This document shows positions 27,463 to 36,980 of a DNA stretch of 64,000 nucleotides, one piece after another. The translations under genes and the position numbers were made by a program. Under the pieces are notes generated by a model. The model was not told where the DNA came from. It searched no databases and saw only the letters and a program-made list of their open reading frames with translations. This DNA is from Runella rosea (GTDB taxonomy: Bacteria; Bacteroidota; Bacteroidia; Cytophagales; Spirosomataceae): assembly GCF_003325355.1 (NCBI RefSeq), contig NZ_CP030850.1, positions 5,139,501 to 5,203,500 of the forward strand, in the 5' to 3' direction. Within the stretch, counting starts at the first letter, position 1. Each line of letters begins with the position of its first letter.

Positions 27463-28266
27463 TTAAAACCCGATAGAATTGCCCCCATCGACTGGCAATG
27501 AAGCGCCCGTGATGTAAGCAGCGGCCTCGGAGGCTAAAAAGACGGCGGCCCAGCCGATGTCCTGCGGCTTGCCAAATTTGCCCATGGGTGTTCGGTTGAG
27601 GGCGCGGTTCATGCGGTCGGGGTCGCTGCTCATGGCGGTTTTCATCATGTTGGTTTCGATAAAGCCCGGTGCAATGGCGTTGACGCGAACGTTGTATTTT
27701 GAAAATTCAGAAGCCAACACTTTCACCATTCCTTCCACACCTGATTTGGACGCGGCATAGGCCACCACGCGATCGATGCCGTAATAGGCCGCCATGGATG
27801 AAATCATCAATATGGAGCCGCTTTGGCGGGCAACCATGCGTTTGGCGCAGGCGCGGGTAAGGGCAAAAACAGCATTGAGGTTGGTATGGATGATGCGGTC
27901 AAAATCAGCATCTGTGACTTCCAACGCGGGTTTTTTCATGTTGATGCCCGCATTGTTGACCAGAATATCTATTTCACCGTAGGTGTTTACAATGGTTTCG
28001 ACAAGGCCTTCCAAGGTGTCTAATTCCGTGACGTCATTTACGACGTAATGGGCCGATGTACCCAAGGCCGCCGTGGCCTCCTGAAGAGCGTGCTCGCGTC
28101 GGCCGGTGATGATGACCGTGGCGCCGGCGTGGGTCATGCATTGGGCAATATCATAGCCAATACCGCTGCCGCCGCCCGTGATAAGCGCAATTTTTCCCTC
28201 CAATGAAAAAACGGATTGGGGGTTTACTAAGGTGAGAGATTCGGTTAATTGTTCTTTCTCTGTCAT
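27463..28266 (-). CDS. SDR family oxidoreductase, candidate fructuronate reductase
   Basis: A 267-residue short-chain dehydrogenase with ALITGGGSGIGYDIA (TGxxxGxG cofactor loop), NNAG, ISSMAAYYG (Ser) and YAASK (catalytic Tyr/Lys). It overlaps the GH67 gene by 4 bp (ATGA), showing translational coupling. Next to alpha-glucuronidase and mannonate dehydratase, the missing step is fructuronate to mannonate (the UxuB reaction), and SDR-type enzymes can do this. A gluconate 5-dehydrogenase or KduD-like role is the main alternative. It is cytoplasmic with no signal peptide. The family call is firm; the substrate is inferred. Confidence 0.85.
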   Translation of the reverse strand: MTEKEQLTESLTLVNPQSVFSLEGKIALITGGGSGIGYDIAQCMTHAGATVIITGRREHALQEATAALGTSAHYVVNDVTELDTLEGLVETIVNTYGEIDILVNNAGINMKKPALEVTDADFDRIIHTNLNAVFALTRACAKRMVARQSGSILMISSMAAYYGIDRVVAYAASKSGVEGMVKVLASEFSKYNVRVNAIAPGFIETNMMKTAMSSDPDRMNRALNRTPMGKFGKPQDIGWAAVFLASEAAAYITGASLPVDGGNSIGF

Positions 28267-30377
28267 CGCAAATGATAAATTTCTACTAATTTTTTAACTT
28301 CATTTAAGGTTCTTTGCGGAGGCGTTAAGGGCTTCGGAAGGGGCATTTTGGAATATTCTCCGAAGTATAAAACACACGCATCGCGCCACCATAAGGCTTC
28401 TTTTTCCTGTATTTTCAATCTTCCTTTTACGTTTTCAAAGATTTCGGGGTCAACGTTTGCTTTGAGGCTTTCCCAAGTCTTTTGCAAGTTTCCGACCTGC
28501 ACCGGGCCGTCGTAATAACGCACACACAACTCATCCCAAAGACTGCGGCCGGTACTCAGTTTTTTGGACCAGGGCACGTGATGAAACCAAAGCAAATAGT
28601 CGAGCGGGCATTGTTCGGGGTTTCCCCACTTTTGTTGGACTTCGGGGCTGTAAAGTTGCAAGGCATTGCTCAACTTACCTGTTCGGTCAAAACCCAGTCC
28701 AATGGAATCAGCACGGTGATAATACACCGATGTCCAGTCGGGGCGGGCACTTTTGGCGAGCCAAGGCTCTGGCCCGTAGTGGTGACTTTCGCCCATCATG
28801 TGAGACGTTCCCAAGGGGTAGGTATAACTCACGTAGATAGGATGTGATTTCAACATCATGTCGGAGATTTTCTGCTCCGTTTGTTTGGTTTGGGTCAGGG
28901 TCATTCGAATCCATTCCGAAGCAATCTGCTCCGATGAAAGCGTGTGGTCCCAAGCTAATCGGCCAAAAGCGTACCAGTTGCTTTGGTTGAAGGGATGCCC
29001 GCACCAATTGACATCTGAACCCGTGTTGGCCACGCCGGCCATTAAGGAGTACTGGGCGTTATACAAACTTCCGTCAATGACTTTGGCCACGGTAGAGCCC
29101 TGCCCTTTGGCGTAGGTATCTGTATCCAAACATTCTTTGAACATCGGTGCCAAATAGGTCAGGTGAGTGGATTGTCCCAAATACTCTTGCGTAATCTGAA
29201 ATTCCATGCCCAACGTTGTTTTGGGAAAAGCTCCAAACATAGGATGAAAAGGTTCCCGAGGCATAAAATCAATGGGGCCATTTTTGACTTGGACAATCAC
29301 TTTAGGGTCGAATGTACCGTCGAGGGGTTTGAATTGAGCGTAGCCCTCCTTGAAACGGTCGCCGTTGGGGTCGGCATTGTATACAAATGCCCGCCAGATA
29401 ACAATGCCGCTGAATGGACGCATGGCTTCGGCTAGCATGTTGGCGCCGTCGGCGTGGGTGCGGCCGTAATCCTGCGGGCCAGGTTCGCCTTCTGAATTGG
29501 CTTTGACCAAATACCCACCAAAATCAGGAATGTATTGGTGAATCTCTTTGGTTTTGTCGTTCCACCATTTGCGCACTTCGGGGTCGAGCGGGTCGGAGGT
29601 TTTGAGTCCGCCGAGGGTGCGGGGTGAGCGGAAGTTGACCGAAATAAATACCTTGATGCCATAAGGACGAAGCACATCAGCCACGGCTTTGATTTTTTCT
29701 AAATATTCAGCGGTCAGAAACCTAGAACTTGCATTGACGTTGTTGATGGAGGTGGCGTTGATTCCTATCGAGGCATTGGCGCGGGCGTACATCACATAAC
29801 GTGGGTCTATGCGATGAGGCAGTTCGTTCCATTTCCACATCGACGAGCCTGCATAGCCGCGCTCTACGGTTCCGTTGGCGTTGTCCCAGTGGTTAAGCAT
29901 TCGAATTTTTACTTTAGGACTGCTTGTGATGGAAAGCTTGGCGAGCGATTTGCCCATTTGAATGGCTCTCAACAATTCAAACGCTCCGTACAATACGCCC
30001 GTTTCAGACTTAGAGGAGATGACGATGTTGCCTTTTTCGGCATAAATCTCATATCCTTCGTTGGAAATATTGGCACTTGAAGGGGCATTTTGGTTCACAT
30101 TGAGAAGAATGCCACCCGTTGATGTTGCCGTTTTTAGGATGGTAACTTTTTTGCCCAACAATCCTTGTAAGCCCGTTTGAAGTTCTTCAGTGGCAATTTT
30201 TAGGGTTTGATTATCAGATGAAACTGCAATGAATTTTGTAAATGGAGCATAGCTTTCCCGCTGCTTGGCATCTTTGATTAAATCGTAATTGAGCCAAAGC
30301 CGTGAGCCGTCATCGGCAAGGGCGGCGGTGGAGAGTAGCAGGAGAAATAGAAAGAAATATCTTGTCATTGATTTCAT
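28263..30377 (-). CDS. GH67 alpha-glucuronidase, exported
   Basis: A 704-residue protein with a signal peptide (about 1-22, ending TAALA). GH67 landmarks: GVLYGAFELLRAIQMG, RMLNHWDNANGTVERGYAG, YLVKANSEGEPGPQDYGRTH (acid/base Glu region), GVANTGSDVNWCGHPFNQSN and YFGEYSKMPLP. Length is normal for GH67. It removes 4-O-methyl-glucuronic acid from the non-reducing end of xylo-oligosaccharides, so it acts after an endoxylanase, here in the periplasm. UxuA lies 60 bp upstream and the SDR gene overlaps its 3' end by 4 bp, which ties release of glucuronate to its breakdown. Confidence 0.95.
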   Translation of the reverse strand: MKSMTRYFFLFLLLLSTAALADDGSRLWLNYDLIKDAKQRESYAPFTKFIAVSSDNQTLKIATEELQTGLQGLLGKKVTILKTATSTGGILLNVNQNAPSSANISNEGYEIYAEKGNIVISSKSETGVLYGAFELLRAIQMGKSLAKLSITSSPKVKIRMLNHWDNANGTVERGYAGSSMWKWNELPHRIDPRYVMYARANASIGINATSINNVNASSRFLTAEYLEKIKAVADVLRPYGIKVFISVNFRSPRTLGGLKTSDPLDPEVRKWWNDKTKEIHQYIPDFGGYLVKANSEGEPGPQDYGRTHADGANMLAEAMRPFSGIVIWRAFVYNADPNGDRFKEGYAQFKPLDGTFDPKVIVQVKNGPIDFMPREPFHPMFGAFPKTTLGMEFQITQEYLGQSTHLTYLAPMFKECLDTDTYAKGQGSTVAKVIDGSLYNAQYSLMAGVANTGSDVNWCGHPFNQSNWYAFGRLAWDHTLSSEQIASEWIRMTLTQTKQTEQKISDMMLKSHPIYVSYTYPLGTSHMMGESHHYGPEPWLAKSARPDWTSVYYHRADSIGLGFDRTGKLSNALQLYSPEVQQKWGNPEQCPLDYLLWFHHVPWSKKLSTGRSLWDELCVRYYDGPVQVGNLQKTWESLKANVDPEIFENVKGRLKIQEKEALWWRDACVLYFGEYSKMPLPKPLTPPQRTLNEVKKLVEIYHLR

Positions 30378-30437: not shown

Positions 30438-31649
30438 TTAAATGCTTTTTTCAATCCCTAACTCTAAACCCCGCAATTCGGCCAAGCCTTTTAAACGACC
30501 AATGGCCGAATAACCTGGATAAGATTTGTCTTTTCCTGTTTTGTACAAATCGTCCAGCATTTGATGTCCGTGGTCGGGGCGCATCGGAATCATAGCGTCC
30601 TTTTGTCCCTGTTTCTTTCTCCTTTTTCCTTCCAGCACAAAGGCTTTTACCACTTCGTACATGTCTACATCACCCGTCAAATGGGCGGCTTCGTGGAAAT
30701 TCAAAGGATTGTCCTCCCGCTTGGTCGTTCTCAAATGCACAAAATGGATACGGTCGCCGAAGCGTTCTACCATTTTTGATAAATTATTGTCGGACCGTAC
30801 ACCCAGCGAGCCGGTACAAAACGTGATGCCATTGGCGCGTACCTTGCAGGCATCCATCAATTGCGCCAAATCAGATTCCGTACTGACTACCCTCGGTAAT
30901 CCTAAAAGTGGTTTCGGTGGGTCGTCAGGGTGAATGCAGAGATTCACGCCAACTTCTTCGGCCACGGGAGCTACCTGCTGAATAAAATAATACAGATTCT
31001 CGCGTAACTCTTTGTCACCGATGTGTTTATAATTATTCAGTAATCCCTGAAACGTGGCCAGTTCAAATGCTTCATTGGAGCCAGGTAGGCCCAATAAAAC
31101 CGTATTCTGGAGCGTGGCTATTTCCTCCGCCGTCATGGCGGTAAACTTGCGTTTGGCCGCTTCTTGTACTTCGGGCGTGTAATCGGCTTCGGCATTGGCC
31201 CGTTGGAGAATGCACAGGTCAAACACCGCAAAATCTTCCCACACAAAACGCAGGGCGAGGGAGCCATCGGGCATTTCGTAGTGCAGGTTGGTGCGTGACC
31301 AATCTAGCACTGGCATGAAGTTATAACACACCGTTTTGATGCCGCAGGCCGCTAAGTTGCGCAACGATATTTTGTAGTTTTCGATATATTGCGCCCGACT
31401 CGGCAGACCTTTTTTGATGTCTTCGTGAACGGGCAGGCTCTCTACTACTTCCCACGTGAGCGGGGTATAGCGGTCATTGTCTGCTTCGATGAGTTGAATA
31501 CGTTGTTGAATAGCCTCGACAGACCAAACTTCCCCAACGGGGATTTGGTGTAAGGCCGTAACAATGCCCGTGCATCCCGCCTGACGAATATCCATCAGTG
31601 AAACGGGGTCGTTTGGCCCGAACCAACGCATGGTTTGAATAAATGTCAT
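30438..31649 (-). CDS. uxuA: Mannonate dehydratase
   Basis: Converts D-mannonate to 2-keto-3-deoxy-D-gluconate. The 403-residue protein opens with [21 protein letters not shown] and [15 protein letters not shown], the clear UxuA start. [17 protein letters not shown] and [14 protein letters not shown] carry metal-binding and substrate residues, and [15 protein letters not shown] is near the C-terminus. Length is close to the E. coli enzyme. It is cytoplasmic. In this operon it takes glucuronate released by GH67 (after isomerisation and reduction) towards KDG. UxaC, KdgK and KdgA are not in the window. Confidence 0.96.
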
Positions 31650-31741: not shown

Positions 31742-32638
31742 TTATTCACTTTTATATTTTTCAAATAGGCTTGCCACATTTGCCGTTTGGTGGTTGCCAG
31801 CGTGGACTAATACGCGATACCGCAGGGTGAGTTTTTCTCCTTTTTTCATCACCGTTGCTTTGTCATCCTGCGGCCAATACATGGGCGTGGGAGAAAAGAA
31901 ACCATAATCACGGGTGAACCACGGTGAAGGGTACCAGGGGTTGGAAGGGTGCTGCATAATGGTCATACCTTCCACTTTGTCGCCTCTTTTGCCGGAGCAA
32001 TCTATCCACGGTGATTTTATCCCAAACGTTCCTTTTTCGGCTTGATTTCCTTCGGCGTTGATCATGGTGCCTCCGTTGATAACCGCCAAATCTGGGTCCA
32101 TGCGTCCGCTGAAAAGAGAGTGGTTGGTTTTCAAAATGGTCACATCCATGAGGGTCTCCATGGTGACGTTAAAATCAATTTGGTACAGGTCTTTGGAAGG
32201 AGCTGTAATGGTGATGGTACGGAAGTCTTTGATGGGGGCGTTGGCTTCGGGGCGACGCCAAATGCACTCATTTTCAATCACAACCTTGTCTCCTCCTGAT
32301 TGAACAATATCAGCTCGTAACGAAATAATCTGACCTTTTTCTAGGCCTTCTTGCCAATAATTGCCACCGTTTACTTTATCACATCCGAAAAATAAGGAGC
32401 TGTGGTGCGGGTAATTTCCGTTACGCATGGAGGTCACACTTGCATTAGAAGGTCCGTTGACGGGATAGAAAAACGGGTATTTTTCATCCTGCGAAAAAAT
32501 GTAGCTCGTAAAAAAGTTATTGTTGATTGTGATGTCAATTTTGGAATTGAGCTTCTGAGCCGTAATTTTTGTTTGGGCCTGGCTCGCCATACTTGAAAAT
32601 ACGGCTGCGAAAAAGAGAATCTGTTTGATATAATGCAT
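31742..32638 (-). CDS. Exported DUF6807 (PmoA-like) protein
   Basis: A 298-residue protein with a signal peptide (about 1-22, ending SMASQAQ). The body is beta-rich with the family landmarks YPFFYPVNGPSNASVTSMRN, YPHHSSLFFGCDKVNGGNYW and SPWFTRDYGFFSPTPMYW. The family is common in Bacteroidota next to Gfo/Idh/MocA oxidoreductases and sugar-acid genes. Its activity is not established as far as I know. It lies just downstream of two Tat-exported oxidoreductases, so all three may act together on a sugar in the periplasm. A 142-bp repeat element sits between it and the oxidoreductase gene. Confidence 0.78.
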   Translation of the reverse strand: MHYIKQILFFAAVFSSMASQAQTKITAQKLNSKIDITINNNFFTSYIFSQDEKYPFFYPVNGPSNASVTSMRNGNYPHHSSLFFGCDKVNGGNYWQEGLEKGQIISLRADIVQSGGDKVVIENECIWRRPEANAPIKDFRTITITAPSKDLYQIDFNVTMETLMDVTILKTNHSLFSGRMDPDLAVINGGTMINAEGNQAEKGTFGIKSPWIDCSGKRGDKVEGMTIMQHPSNPWYPSPWFTRDYGFFSPTPMYWPQDDKATVMKKGEKLTLRYRVLVHAGNHQTANVASLFEKYKSE

Positions 32639-32680: not shown

Positions 32681-32824
32681 CGTAGGGGCGGGCCTTGCGT
32701 CCGCCCCTTTTTGTTCTTTGTGTAAACTATCGCGCGGGCGCAAACGGTAACGTACGGGGCGTCATGAGTGGACGCAAACGGAACGTACGGGACGCTATGG
32801 GTGGACGCGAGGCCCACCCCTACG
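32681..32824. repeat. 144-bp palindromic repeat element with terminal inverted repeats
   Basis: The ends (32681-32705 and 32800-32824) are inverted repeats matching at 22 of 25 positions. The left end itself folds into AGGGGCGG/CCGCCCCT (32684-32691, 32701-32708) followed by a T-run. The middle is a tandem repeat of about 33 bp (32737-32770 and 32771-32803). The right end contains the TAG stop of the upstream oxidoreductase gene (32820-32822). The layout fits a MITE-like or REP-like element. Confidence 0.7.
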
Positions 32825-33977
32825 CTTTCAAATGAATTTGTTGCGCCTGTTTCTGCGCTTTGATAGACAGTTCCGCTGCCAATAAACAATGGGCTTGCGG
32901 CATGGCCGTTTCAGTCCGGTTGATTACATCATCTACCAACTGACGACCGTAAGGCAATTCCTGCTGCGTGCAGTCAATGTAGCGCGTCTCTTTGTGGTCG
33001 GTCAGAAACAGGTGATTGCCACCTTCACGCCCGCCAATGTCGATGTTTTTACGAATTTCGATGAATCCATCGGTGCCCAAAATTGTCAGGCGACCGTCGC
33101 CCCATGTTTTGAGTCCGTCGGGGGTGAACCAGTCTACTCGAATATAACCCATACCGCCGTTGCCGCGGAGCATCACATCGCCGAAGTCCTCAAAGTCAGG
33201 GTATTGCGGATAGTGCGTGTTGCCCACCTGCGACGCCACGATTTCGGCTTGGGTAGAGTTGGTGAAGAATAGATATTGGTCAAACTGGTGAGAACCGATG
33301 TCGCAAATGATGCCCCCAAACTGCTCTTTGTGAAAAAACCACTCGGGACGTGTTTTGGGGTTCATGCGGTGCGGGCCCATTCCGATGGTTTGAATAACTT
33401 TACCGATAGCGCCTGCTTTGACCAATTCTCCTGCTTTTACGGTTGCGCGGTTTTCGAGGCGTTCGCTATACATGATGGAGTAGATACGTCCCGTTTGTTT
33501 CTGTACCTTCCGTACTTCGGCGAGTTGTTCGAGGGTGGTAATGCCGGGTTTGTCCGACATAAAATCTTTACCGCTTTTCATTACCCGAACACCCAACGGA
33601 GCGCGCTCGTTGGCAATGGCCGAGCTTAGCACCAATTGGATGGATTTGTCATCCAAAATTTCTTTTTCGCCCGAAGCGAGCTTAGCTTTAGGGTGGCGTT
33701 TGGCAAATGCCGCTACTAAATCAGGCTCTTTGGCATAATACGAAACCAATTCTCCACCTCCGCGAATTACCGCTTCCACTTGTCCATAAATATGGCCGTG
33801 GTTCATACCGATGACCGCAAATTTAATGCGTGGTGTATCGTACTGGATAATGGGAGAAGGAGCTACTTTTTCGGTTTTAATATGGCCGAAAGAATCGGTG
33901 GAAAGTATGGGAAGGGCCATGAGGCCAGCGGCCGATTCTTTCAAAAATGTGCGTCGTTGGTTATCGGAATTTTTCAT
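32820..33977 (-). CDS. Gfo/Idh/MocA oxidoreductase, Tat-exported (1)
   Basis: A 385-residue protein. It starts with a Tat-type leader (NQRRTFLKESAAGLMALPIL), then the Rossmann fold (KFAVIGMNHGHIYGQVEAVI) and the C-terminal alpha/beta domain (GIICDIGSHQFDQYLFF). The usual EKP motif reads SDKPGITT, with the lysine kept. Exported Gfo/Idh/MocA proteins in Bacteroidota can carry a tightly bound cofactor and oxidise or reduce glycosides in the periplasm. The substrate here is unknown. The stop codon lies inside a palindromic repeat element, so the extreme C-terminus (LKA) may have been reset by its insertion. Confidence 0.87.
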   Translation of the reverse strand: MKNSDNQRRTFLKESAAGLMALPILSTDSFGHIKTEKVAPSPIIQYDTPRIKFAVIGMNHGHIYGQVEAVIRGGGELVSYYAKEPDLVAAFAKRHPKAKLASGEKEILDDKSIQLVLSSAIANERAPLGVRVMKSGKDFMSDKPGITTLEQLAEVRKVQKQTGRIYSIMYSERLENRATVKAGELVKAGAIGKVIQTIGMGPHRMNPKTRPEWFFHKEQFGGIICDIGSHQFDQYLFFTNSTQAEIVASQVGNTHYPQYPDFEDFGDVMLRGNGGMGYIRVDWFTPDGLKTWGDGRLTILGTDGFIEIRKNIDIGGREGGNHLFLTDHKETRYIDCTQQELPYGRQLVDDVINRTETAMPQAHCLLAAELSIKAQKQAQQIHLKA

Positions 33978-34029: not shown

Positions 34030-35436
34030 TTACATCTTGATATTGGTCGTACCGTAAGGCTTACGTTGTGGGCGGCTTAGCATGGCGTTGGCTTCGTTGT
34101 CGTTGACAAAACGTTCGGCTTTAGGGTCCCACTGCAATTTACGGGGCAATTTCATGGCAATGTGACTTACCAAGCATACGCTGCACGCGCGGTGACCAAT
34201 CTCAACGGGCGAAATCGGCGCTTTACGCGTTTTGATGCATTCGAGCCAGTTGCCGTGTTGCTCCTCGCTTTTATACAAATGAATTTCGTTCTCACCGATG
34301 ACCGACGTCAGAATTTTAGGGTCGCTGGCATCTAGTGCTTTGCTACTTTTAGCTTTTGAGACGGGGTCGCTGGCTGAAGCCACATAGTCGCCACGAGATA
34401 CAAAAATCCAACCTTCGGTTCCTTCATAACGGATACCGTTGGGGAAGCCTCCGCTGGTGTACATCGTGATGCCGTTGGCGTATTCGGCTTTGACCATGAA
34501 ATCGCCGTGAACATTCCAGAGACCCGATTTTGGAAATTCAGCCACGGCTTGTACCGAAATAGGTCCCGTCAGTTCGGTGTCCATTCCCCACGCGGCAGAG
34601 TCAAAGTGATGTTGTCCCCAACCCGTAATCATTCCCGCGCCAAACTGCTCGATGCGCAGCCAGCCAGGTCGGCCATAACCCTGCTGCGGGTGAACGCCGA
34701 TTTCGGTATAAGGCATTTCGGGGGTTGAGCCGAGCCACATATCATAATTAAAGCCTTTAGGAACGGGCATTGTGGGGGCCGAAGGCCCTGACGGGTCGCC
34801 GGGAAGACCTACTTTGACAGTGTGCAGCTTTCCGATGCGACCGTTGCGGACCAATTCCGCCGCAATTCTGAATTGGGGAGAAGAGCGTTGCTGTGTTCCT
34901 ACTTGTAGAATTGTGCCTTTTTTCTGGATAACATCGCTCAACATTCGGCCTTCGGCAATGGTCAAAGACGTTGGTTTTTGGAGGTAAACGTCCTTGCCAG
35001 CGAGGGCGGCTTCAATGGCAGGCTGCGAATGCCAGTGGTCTGGCGTGCTGATGATGACGGCGTCGATGTCTTTGTTGAGTAACATCTCGCGGTAGTCGTC
35101 GTACATTTTGGCTTCTACGTAGTTAGCGTTGCCCGTCTTTTTGGCGTAATAGCCTTCCACCAGTTTTTTGCCATCCACTAGGCGATTTTTGTCAAGGTCA
35201 CAGACCGCAATCATACGTGCTACGTCGTGTTGGAGGGTGCCGACCATATCGTGGTCTCGGCCGATACGTCCGCAGCCTATTTGACCGATATTGATTTTAT
35301 TGCTGGGCGCATTTTTGCCAAATACGGAAGCTGGAACAATGGTCGGAACGCCAATGACGGTGGAAGCTACCGCACCTTTGGCCGTCAGCGAGAGGAATTC
35401 CCTTCGCGAAACAGAGGTTTTTGGTTCTTTTGACAT
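34030..35436 (-). CDS. Gfo/Idh/MocA oxidoreductase, Tat-exported (2)
   Basis: A 468-residue protein with a clear Tat leader (SVSRREFLSLTAKGAVAST) ending near residue 40. The Rossmann start is KINIGQIGCGRIGRDHDMV. VIISTPDHWHSQPAIEAALAGK and DVYLQKPTSL (catalytic Lys in the QKP motif) follow, then GWGQHHFDSAAWGMDTE of the C-terminal domain. This long exported subtype is abundant in Bacteroidota polysaccharide loci and has been linked to periplasmic redox steps on sugars (3-keto-glycoside chemistry in some cases). It is the first gene of the ten-gene minus-strand run and diverges from the LacI-type regulator, so it is the likeliest direct target. Confidence 0.87.
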   Translation of the reverse strand: MSKEPKTSVSRREFLSLTAKGAVASTVIGVPTIVPASVFGKNAPSNKINIGQIGCGRIGRDHDMVGTLQHDVARMIAVCDLDKNRLVDGKKLVEGYYAKKTGNANYVEAKMYDDYREMLLNKDIDAVIISTPDHWHSQPAIEAALAGKDVYLQKPTSLTIAEGRMLSDVIQKKGTILQVGTQQRSSPQFRIAAELVRNGRIGKLHTVKVGLPGDPSGPSAPTMPVPKGFNYDMWLGSTPEMPYTEIGVHPQQGYGRPGWLRIEQFGAGMITGWGQHHFDSAAWGMDTELTGPISVQAVAEFPKSGLWNVHGDFMVKAEYANGITMYTSGGFPNGIRYEGTEGWIFVSRGDYVASASDPVSKAKSSKALDASDPKILTSVIGENEIHLYKSEEQHGNWLECIKTRKAPISPVEIGHRACSVCLVSHIAMKLPRKLQWDPKAERFVNDNEANAMLSRPQRKPYGTTNIKM

Positions 35437-35625: not shown

Positions 35626-35656
35626 CAAAGATATTACCTAATTTTTTCGATTAAAA
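35626..35656 (-). promoter_or_regulatory. Candidate promoter of the glucuronoxylan operon
   Basis: On the minus strand TATCTTTG (35633-35626) matches TAnnTTTG; 19 bases upstream lies TTTT (35656-35653), three of four matches to TTTG. It would give a leader of roughly 180 nt before the first oxidoreductase gene. Confidence 0.5.
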
Positions 35657-35672
35657 TACTAAAAAAGTCTAT

Positions 35673-35686
35673 CGAAAACGTTTTCG
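35673..35686. promoter_or_regulatory. LacI-type operator between divergent units
   Basis: CGAAAACGTTTTCG is a perfect 14-bp palindrome with the central CG typical of LacI-family operators. It lies between the candidate minus-strand promoter (35626-35656) and a plus-strand -7 box (35728-35735), so one bound dimer could control both the catabolic operon and the regulator. The rest of the 383-bp gap is AT-rich; a 14-bp direct repeat, ATTTTTCGATTAAA, occurs at 35643 and 35764. Confidence 0.78.
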
Positions 35687-35727
35687 GAAACGCAACCGAT
35701 AGATATAATTAAATGAGATATTTTATA

Positions 35728-35735
35728 TATTTTTG
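35728..35735 (+). promoter_or_regulatory. -7 box of the LacI-type regulator gene
   Basis: TATTTTTG matches TAnnTTTG and would give a leader of about 80 nt before ATG 35820. No TTTG is found at the ideal -33 distance. Confidence 0.45.
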
Positions 35736-35819
35736 TGAAATTGTATAAAAGTAAACGCTTAATATTTTTCGATTAAAGAAAATTTATTTTACTTACAAAC
35801 TTGGAAAAATGTAATTTTG

Positions 35820-36980
35820 ATGGTAGCGTGTGAAAAATGCGGTAGCGATAAGAATGTCATAAAATCGGGGTTTATAAGAGGTCAGCAGCGACTCTACTGC
35901 AAGTCTTGTGAGGTTCATTTTACCATGAATTTACCTCAAAAAGGTGTAAATAAACCCATTCGACAAGTTACGATTGTCGACATTGCCAAGGCTTTAGGCG
36001 TGGCACCCTCTACGGTTTCGCGGGCGTTGAATGGAAGCTCGGATATAAATCCGCAGACGCGTCAGGAGATTTTGCGGGTAGCAACTGAAATGGATTATCG
36101 GCCTAATCTGCTGGCACAGAGCCTTCACCGTGGTGAGACCCACACCATCGGTGTCGTGATTCCCGATATTGAGCGCCCTTTTTTTGCGGCGGTCTTGGCA
36201 GGTATTCAGAAAGTGGCAACCGAGGCCGGCTACCGGGTGATGATTTGCCAATCGAACGAATCACACTCGACCGAAACCCTTAACGTACAGGCATTAGTGG
36301 CTAGTAGGGTTGATGGATTACTGATTAGTCATTCTAAAGAAACAACCTCGTTTGAACACATCAAACTTCAACTCAAAAAAGGGTTGCCTATTGTCCATTT
36401 TGACCGGGTTTGTTACGACATCGAAACCTCAAAAGTGGTTCAGGAAGATTTTGATGGGAGTTTTGCCTTGGTCGAACACCTCATTTTGCAGGGGTGCCGG
36501 AGGATTGCGGTATGTGCTGGGCCTCGGGAATTATTGATAAGCACGACCCGCCTGAATGGCTACAAAGCAGCATTGGCCAAATACGGAATTCCGTTGGATG
36601 AAGAGTTGATTTATCACAGCAATTTCAAGAAAGGAGAGCCGCTACTTGCCTTGAAAGCTTGGTTGGATTTAGACCCAAAACCAGACGGAATTTTTGCAGT
36701 TCATTACGCGAATGCGGTTGATATGATTATGGAACTGAAAAGGCTTAAAATTCAAATTCCCGAACAAATCGCCGTGGTAGGTTTTGGTGATGAACTTATT
36801 GCTTCGCTGATTGAGCCATCCTTGACGGTTTTCCACCTTTTTCCGTTTAATGTTGGCGAAACCGCCGCTACTTTGTTGATTGACAACATCATACACAAAG
36901 ATACGTTTGAGCCAGTAGTAAAAAAAGTCAAAGGAGAATTGATTATTCGGCAGTCTTCCTTGCGAACTACATCCCTTTAG
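35820..36980 (+). CDS. LacI-family regulator with N-terminal InsA-like zinc ribbon
   Basis: A 386-residue protein with three parts. Residues 4-34 are a four-cysteine zinc ribbon (C4, C7, C27, C30; CEKCGSDKNVIKSG and GQQRLYCKSC) that resembles the N-terminus of IS1 InsA proteins, not anything usual in LacI. Residues about 50-75 are the LacI helix-turn-helix (VDIAKALGVAPSTVSRALNG), followed by the hinge helix region NLLAQSLHRG. Residues about 105-386 are the periplasmic-binding-protein-like sensor (TIGVVIPDIERPFF). It likely represses or activates the divergent glucuronoxylan genes through the palindrome at 35673. ATG 35820 is preceded by an in-frame TTG. Its 3' end overlaps the convergent NFACT gene by 14 bp. 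Confidence 0.9.
   Translation: MVACEKCGSDKNVIKSGFIRGQQRLYCKSCEVHFTMNLPQKGVNKPIRQVTIVDIAKALGVAPSTVSRALNGSSDINPQTRQEILRVATEMDYRPNLLAQSLHRGETHTIGVVIPDIERPFFAAVLAGIQKVATEAGYRVMICQSNESHSTETLNVQALVASRVDGLLISHSKETTSFEHIKLQLKKGLPIVHFDRVCYDIETSKVVQEDFDGSFALVEHLILQGCRRIAVCAGPRELLISTTRLNGYKAALAKYGIPLDEELIYHSNFKKGEPLLALKAWLDLDPKPDGIFAVHYANAVDMIMELKRLKIQIPEQIAVVGFGDELIASLIEPSLTVFHLFPFNVGETAATLLIDNIIHKDTFEPVVKKVKGELIIRQSSLRTTSL

Follow-up and report, generated by a model that had tools for sequence, protein, structure and literature searches.

The regulator encoded at 35820..36980 (+ strand) of the Runella rosea window, which is the whole stretch of 64,000 nucleotides that was analysed, is a LacI-type protein with a four-cysteine ribbon ahead of its helix-turn-helix (HTH). 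We propose, with a probability of about two in three, that this ribbon acts as an extra DNA-reading head, which would read about 5 bp outside each half-site of the operator. The proposal is built on comparison of upstream sequences, in which the outer arms CTAYC/GRTAG of a 34-bp operator-like element are associated more with the ribbon than with the recognition helix.

The open reading frame as listed opens at a TTG at 35817, with the ATG at 35820 and the final base of the stop codon at 36980. The product of 386 aa is assigned by the frame itself, by Pfam LacI and Peripla_BP matches and by homologues, among which the nearest named protein comes from Runella aurantiaca (98% identical). The N-terminal ribbon occupies residues 1–34 (MVACEKCGSDKNVIKSGFIRGQQRLYCKSCEVHF; 35820..35921, + strand) and contains C4, C7, C27 and C30, with RGxQR before the third cysteine. 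Residues 35–50 (35922..35969, +) form a linker from ribbon to HTH, judged variable by predicted-structure confidence and pN/pS, and residues 51–96 (35970..36107, +) match the LacI HTH (PF00356; 48.1 bits, cut-off 27). Periplasmic-binding-protein domains make up most of the protein beyond the HTH, including the sensor domain PF13377 (Peripla_BP_3; residues 218–380, 103.5 bits, cut-off 26.5). The architecture described in the earlier note, a C4/C7/C27/C30 ribbon followed by a LacI HTH and a sensor domain, is thus confirmed by the frame and both Pfam matches. In two AlphaFold models the ribbon is predicted to form three strands (13–19, 22–27 and 32–35/36), with block pLDDT values of about 75–87 for residues 1–30, and the linker falls below 50 at residues 38–45 in one model and 41–46 in the other. 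At its 3' end the regulator gene overlaps a convergent NFACT-family gene by 14 bp (36967–36980).

The ribbon is conserved among relatives of this protein. Of 3,629 homologues found, 120 were listed, and CxxC..CxxC stands at the N-terminus in 116 of them; the other four may be late start calls, as the sequence starts within the ribbon in P0072, at the last ribbon residues in P0077 and P0105, and in the linker in P0086. In a 31-sequence alignment, which left out the Aquirufa-type sequences with V at position 23, residues C4, C7, G17, R20, G21, Q23, R24, C27, C30 and F34 are invariant, and a chance motif was rejected as the origin of the ribbon pattern on account of these residues. Every one of the 80 named loci, retrieved with core patterns as the best 80 of 154, has the ribbon too. 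For Runella and Emticicia respectively, pN/pS values are 0.25 and 0.19 in the ribbon codons, 0.51 and 0.39 in the linker and 0.13 and 0.11 in the HTH; by this measure the ribbon codons are under purifying selection.

A mis-called start, with the first ~35 residues untranslated and the protein beginning at M36, is hardly credible. A TAnnTTTG-like string at 35812–35819 directly abuts the ATG, and four of the 120 listed homologues begin inside or after the ribbon, as this explanation would predict. However, the string occurs at that place in just two of nine Runella sequences checked, and the explanation was rejected because of the purifying selection on the ribbon codons and the invariant cysteines. 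Two possibilities raised in the earlier note, a downstream start and a ribbon absent from all orthologues, are therefore not upheld, the former in view of the ribbon-codon pN/pS of 0.19–0.25 and the cysteines invariant across 31 relatives, the latter in view of the listed homologues (116 of 120) and the named loci (80 of 80) with a ribbon.

In a census of this architecture, which had been put forward as a check, a match spanning ribbon and HTH was detected in 48 of 291 genomes of the order sample (E <= 1e-14). In the phylum sample, five of 296 genomes had such a match in a frame of LacI length, and the remaining matches there were mostly to the HTH, a few being ribbons in short frames (143–147 aa). 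Seven of nine matches span the ribbon in another family of the class (147 genomes). The Runella genome itself encodes two LacIs with the ribbon and four matches to LacI that lack it, besides one standalone ribbon protein. Its second ribbon LacI (L280:9477-10628) adjoins SusC/SusD-type genes and has no clear 34-bp site upstream. In trees, ribbon-less proteins nest among ribbon proteins, which implies at least one loss or a second gain.

Compared with LacI/GalR regulators such as PurR, CcpA and RbsR, the protein shares the HTH, the hinge and the periplasmic-binding-protein-like sensor. Among the structural matches listed, complexes of PurR and RbsR with operators rank best, and the listed alignments cover about 270–350 columns, roughly the LacI part alone. 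The differences are the extra N-terminal ribbon and linker, about 50 residues together, and the outer arms in the operator-like element. Among the papers listed in literature searches, judged by titles and the opening lines of abstracts, none described a LacI protein with a zinc ribbon.

The resemblance of the ribbon to the start of IS1 InsA proteins, suggested in the earlier note, is borderline by profile score. A 46-aa piece scores 28.7 bits against NF050000 (NCBIfam IS1/IS1595 zinc-binding domain; cut-off 28), the four zinc-type cysteines expected of this domain are present, and 30 of 31 alignment members match it at E <= 1e-3. The score drops to 23.6 bits with the whole regulator as query, and the isolated piece reaches 13.0 bits against the PF03811 InsA domain, below the Pfam gathering cut-off of 26.1, so that the regulator stands at the edge of the first model and under the second. 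No full-length IS1 transposase match was obtained, NF033558 giving 24.1 bits over residues 4–72 only (cut-off 100). Searched against PDB sequences, the ribbon piece gave five chance-level matches (best E 0.51), and a fold search with the N-terminal 97 residues returned LacI headpieces, mostly over 46–50 columns; a plant Dof zinc finger at rank 50 of that list (E 0.34) was discounted as a match. A search for ribbon-only proteins gave one candidate.

Like IS1 InsA, the regulator has a four-cysteine ribbon ahead of an HTH, and InsA presumably also has QR before its third cysteine. Unlike InsA, it shows no match to a catalytic part, its gene keeps a conserved chromosomal place, and its HTH is of the LacI type. 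The same genome encodes a standalone InsA-like protein of 140 aa (L007:1486-1905) with an IS1-type ribbon (42.2 bits to NF050000), which carries QR before the third cysteine and then an HTH-like part, but lacks the LacI sensor domain of the regulator. This protein has 1,679 matches, several of which are named IS1 family transposase, and its 140 aa leave little room for a catalytic domain. Descent of the ribbon from a transposase is plausible, though the transfer may have run either way.

Between the regulator gene and the divergent UxuA/GH67 cluster lies a single 34-bp element, CTATCGAAAACGTTTTCGGAAACGCAACCGATAG (35669..35702), of the form CTATCG-N22-CGATAG, which is a candidate operator on grounds of sequence conservation; with up to three mismatches allowed, the pattern has no other match in the genome. 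It is contained in the region 35640–35740 that had been singled out by the earlier note. The left outer arm CTATC (35669..35673) and the right outer arm GATAG (35698..35702) are the proposed ribbon contacts. A palindromic operator with a central CG near the regulator's own gene is a trait of LacI/GalR proteins, and this candidate site would supply it. Candidate -7 boxes were found for the regulator promoter (TATTTTTG; 35728..35735, + strand) and for the divergent operon (TATCTTTG; 35626..35633, - strand), both of the TAnnTTTG type, which we take to be the -7 box motif. With such candidate boxes on both sides, the element would lie beside both divergent promoters.

A site with at least 16 of the 22 fixed positions was found in 96 of the 105 ribbon genes tested. 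The nine genes below this threshold are six Aquirufa-type genes and L184, with one arm only, and L002/L185, the ribbon paralogue of the Runella genome and its relative, with no clear site upstream. The Aquirufa-type ribbon LacIs (L075, L083, L139, L174, L175 and L177) have RGKVR in place of RGxQR, together with the single arm (CCGATAGGT). Across 81 distinct sites there is covariation about the centre at positions 6/29, 7/28 and 8/27, with the observed value reached in 0 of 2000 shuffles; these counts are inflated by shared descent, and two alternative centres, which serve as control, gave nothing comparable to the true centre.

The 34-bp pattern, at up to two mismatches, occurs in 30 of 48 ribbon-positive versus 0 of 243 ribbon-negative genomes of the 291-genome order sample, a comparison of which the presence half is partly circular and the absence half is not, as the pattern was derived from main-clade ribbon genes. 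The reversed pattern was found in none of the 291 genomes. In the phylum sample the pattern occurs in six of 296 genomes. Four of these are among the five ribbon-positive genomes, and the other two have no ribbon-LacI match. In these last two (G067 and G157; L298 and L299), the hits lie, by eye, in TATCGAAATCG-type repeat-like DNA.

The divergent cluster, on the - strand, starts with a Gfo/Idh/MocA oxidoreductase (34033..35436), followed by a second Gfo/Idh/MocA-type oxidoreductase (32823..33977), a DUF6807 protein (31745..32638), the D-mannonate dehydratase UxuA (30441..31649), a GH67 family protein of the alpha-glucuronidase type (28266..30377) and an SDR oxidoreductase (27466..28266). Among the 80 named loci (best 80 of 154), 73 contain at least one of these six genes, always on the opposite strand, with UxuA in 65, GH67 in 56 and SDR in 54; none was found in the examined DNA of L009–L011, L021, L044, L045 and L077. 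Other ribbon LacIs adjoin other loci, several with SusC/SusD-type genes. Three genomes of the order sample (G335, G539 and G560) contain a second 34-bp site about 15–16 kb away, which in both examined genomes of the trio precedes an ORF that is xylulokinase-like by eye; at L186 a xylose-isomerase-like ORF comes after it. In a distant ribbon-LacI genome the second 34-bp site (G150:C3:331726-331759; L297) and the regulator are separated by about 36 kb, and an ORF close to the site resembles a beta-helix protein by eye. The UxuA/GH67 cluster and the xylulokinase-like second sites point to glucuronate or glucuronoxylan use, for which the protein is most likely the LacI-type regulator. The earlier suggestion of sugar regulation thus agrees with the hexuronate/xylan-type cluster opposite the gene, and the UxuA and GH67 neighbours suggest that the protein responds to a sugar or a related effector.

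The pattern CTAYCG-N22-CGRTAG lies upstream of 79 of 110 ribbon genes versus 0 of 85 others at up to one mismatch of 12, and of 92 versus 2 at up to two mismatches, for a pattern that is mainly main-clade and whose Y/R degeneracy was added after distant sites were seen. After reduction at 80% identity, the counts at up to one mismatch are 19 of 32 ribbon and 0 of 55 non-ribbon genes, and shuffled upstream regions give about 0.2 per 110. TATCG-N22-CGATA, at up to one mismatch, is found in 89 of 110 ribbon genes versus 1 of 85 non-ribbon genes. Other spacings from 16 to 32 give 0–3 ribbon genes each, except 16 (33 genes) and 26 (14 genes), which we attribute to the recurrence of CG every 6 bp. 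Recognition helices differ among the 96 ribbon genes that have a site (APSTV 46, ASSTV 19, SNSTV 12, SPSTV 11, others 8). Of eight distant ribbon genes (L091, L269 and L285–L290), four have CTATCG arms at up to one mismatch (L091, L269, L285 and L286), L290 fits less well, L288 has one arm, and no site was found upstream of L287 and L289.

An orthologous susCD locus, in which SusD is 56–74% identical between ribbon and ribbon-less loci and other SusDs are at 24–34%, offers a closer comparison. Its ribbon regulators have the arms at 0–1 mismatch (L165, L286 and L269) or two mismatches (L142), whereas L092 and L267, which lack the ribbon, each carry a pair of GGGAA-N2-TTCCC sites and no paired arms. 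The cores of L269 (ribbon) and L267 (ribbon-less) are 78% identical and have the same SKSTVSR helix. Pairs of GGGAA-N2-TTCCC sites separated by 20 or 22 bp precede 19 of 27 ribbon-less genes of the L092/L267-type genus; the string is unmatched in the other eight, some of which carry variants. The ribbon-less group with such pairs comprises the upstream regions L247–L256 and L259–L267. In an independent-pairs test, the arms agree with the ribbon in 2.1 of three ribbon/no-ribbon contrasts on average and oppose it in 0.0, the three contrasts being too few for significance (median p 0.5).

As a control, we used 41 non-redundant ribbon-less LacI genes from the same taxonomic family as Runella, of which 36 distinct sites were aligned, anchored on their own consensus (left arm). 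The control sites show the same layout with CG every 6 bp, and one of them is a perfect 34-bp palindrome; for example, the ribbon-less L201 carries TTTACGCAACCGTTCCCGGGAACGGTTGCGTAAA in the same 34-bp layout. The elements upstream of L201, L005, L192 and L193 are about 30–34 bp long with CG every 6 bp, and resemble a pair of ordinary LacI operators that overlap at an offset of 12 bp. Since ribbon-less LacIs have equally long elements, the idea that the ribbon causes the 34-bp length was dropped, and only the outer arms remain attributable to the ribbon. In these alignments neither the length nor the possession of an arm is ribbon-specific, and the two sets of elements differ in the arm word and in the right arm. 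Ribbon genes have 1.2–2.0 bits at positions 13–16 on both sides (CTATCG/CGATAG), whereas the controls have 1.0–2.0 bits in the left arm TTTAC and 0.2–0.6 bits in the right arm (14–17), with an anchoring that favours the left. The second DNA contact envisaged in the earlier note is consequently supported by outer arms that track the ribbon, but its proposal of a longer operator as such did not survive this control.

These controls also bear on an alternative that we consider unlikely, namely that the LacI HTH itself reads the arms while the ribbon has another role, for example in protein contacts or folding. The element would then be two overlapping operators 12 bp apart, occupied by two dimers or in alternative registers, which would fit the 34-bp layout of ribbon-less LacIs such as L201, the likeness of the outer half-sites to ordinary LacI half-sites with their own conserved flank, and the single-operator variants in Aquirufa-type genes and L184. 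However, the arm word remains CTAYC across different recognition helices, ribbon-less orthologues with the same helix have no paired arms, and the LacI code published in PMC2978694 ties the recognition helix mainly to half-site positions 4–6, with positions 7 and 8 unmentioned in its text.

The four invariant cysteines could also belong to a metal or redox sensor, in which zinc loss or cysteine oxidation would alter LacI DNA binding. We regard this as quite improbable: among ten neighbours scanned with Pfam, eight matched and one is thioredoxin-like, and no metal transporter or redox regulator was found among the eight. Moreover, the conserved RGxQR would be unneeded for metal binding and would better fit a DNA contact. 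The reading of the ribbon as an additional DNA-reading head has a point against it as well, since the ribbon-less controls have a conserved left arm of their own (TTTAC), and this slightly lowers our confidence in it.

Each monomer consists, in order of sequence, of the IS1-like four-cysteine ribbon, the variable linker, the LacI HTH and the sensor domain. The cysteines would bind zinc, the HTH would read GGNAAC-type half-sites, and the ribbon, on its ~15-residue linker, would read the CTAYC word just outside each of them, so that each half-site would grow from about 6 to about 11 bp. By analogy, this may resemble InsA, which needs its zinc finger as well as its HTH to bind the IS1 ends (PMC12428005). 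A longer half-site would give higher specificity and keep ribbon regulators apart from ribbon-less LacIs with the same helix. In the simplest mode, both divergent promoters would be repressed, and a sugar acid on the sensor domain would release the protein and lift the repression.

LacI regulators are a textbook case of specificity attributed to the recognition helix and hinge. We tentatively suggest, at slightly below even odds, that the ribbon is a portable specificity tag, whose LacI demands a constant 5-bp word, CTAYC, outside the half-site. If true, several LacIs with the same helix could run in one genome without cross-talk, and the family would provide a natural example of regulators gaining new DNA words with the helix unchanged. 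L269 with the ribbon and L267 without it are a natural pair for direct comparison, and the 34-bp element may mark hexuronate/xylose regulons in Cytophagales.
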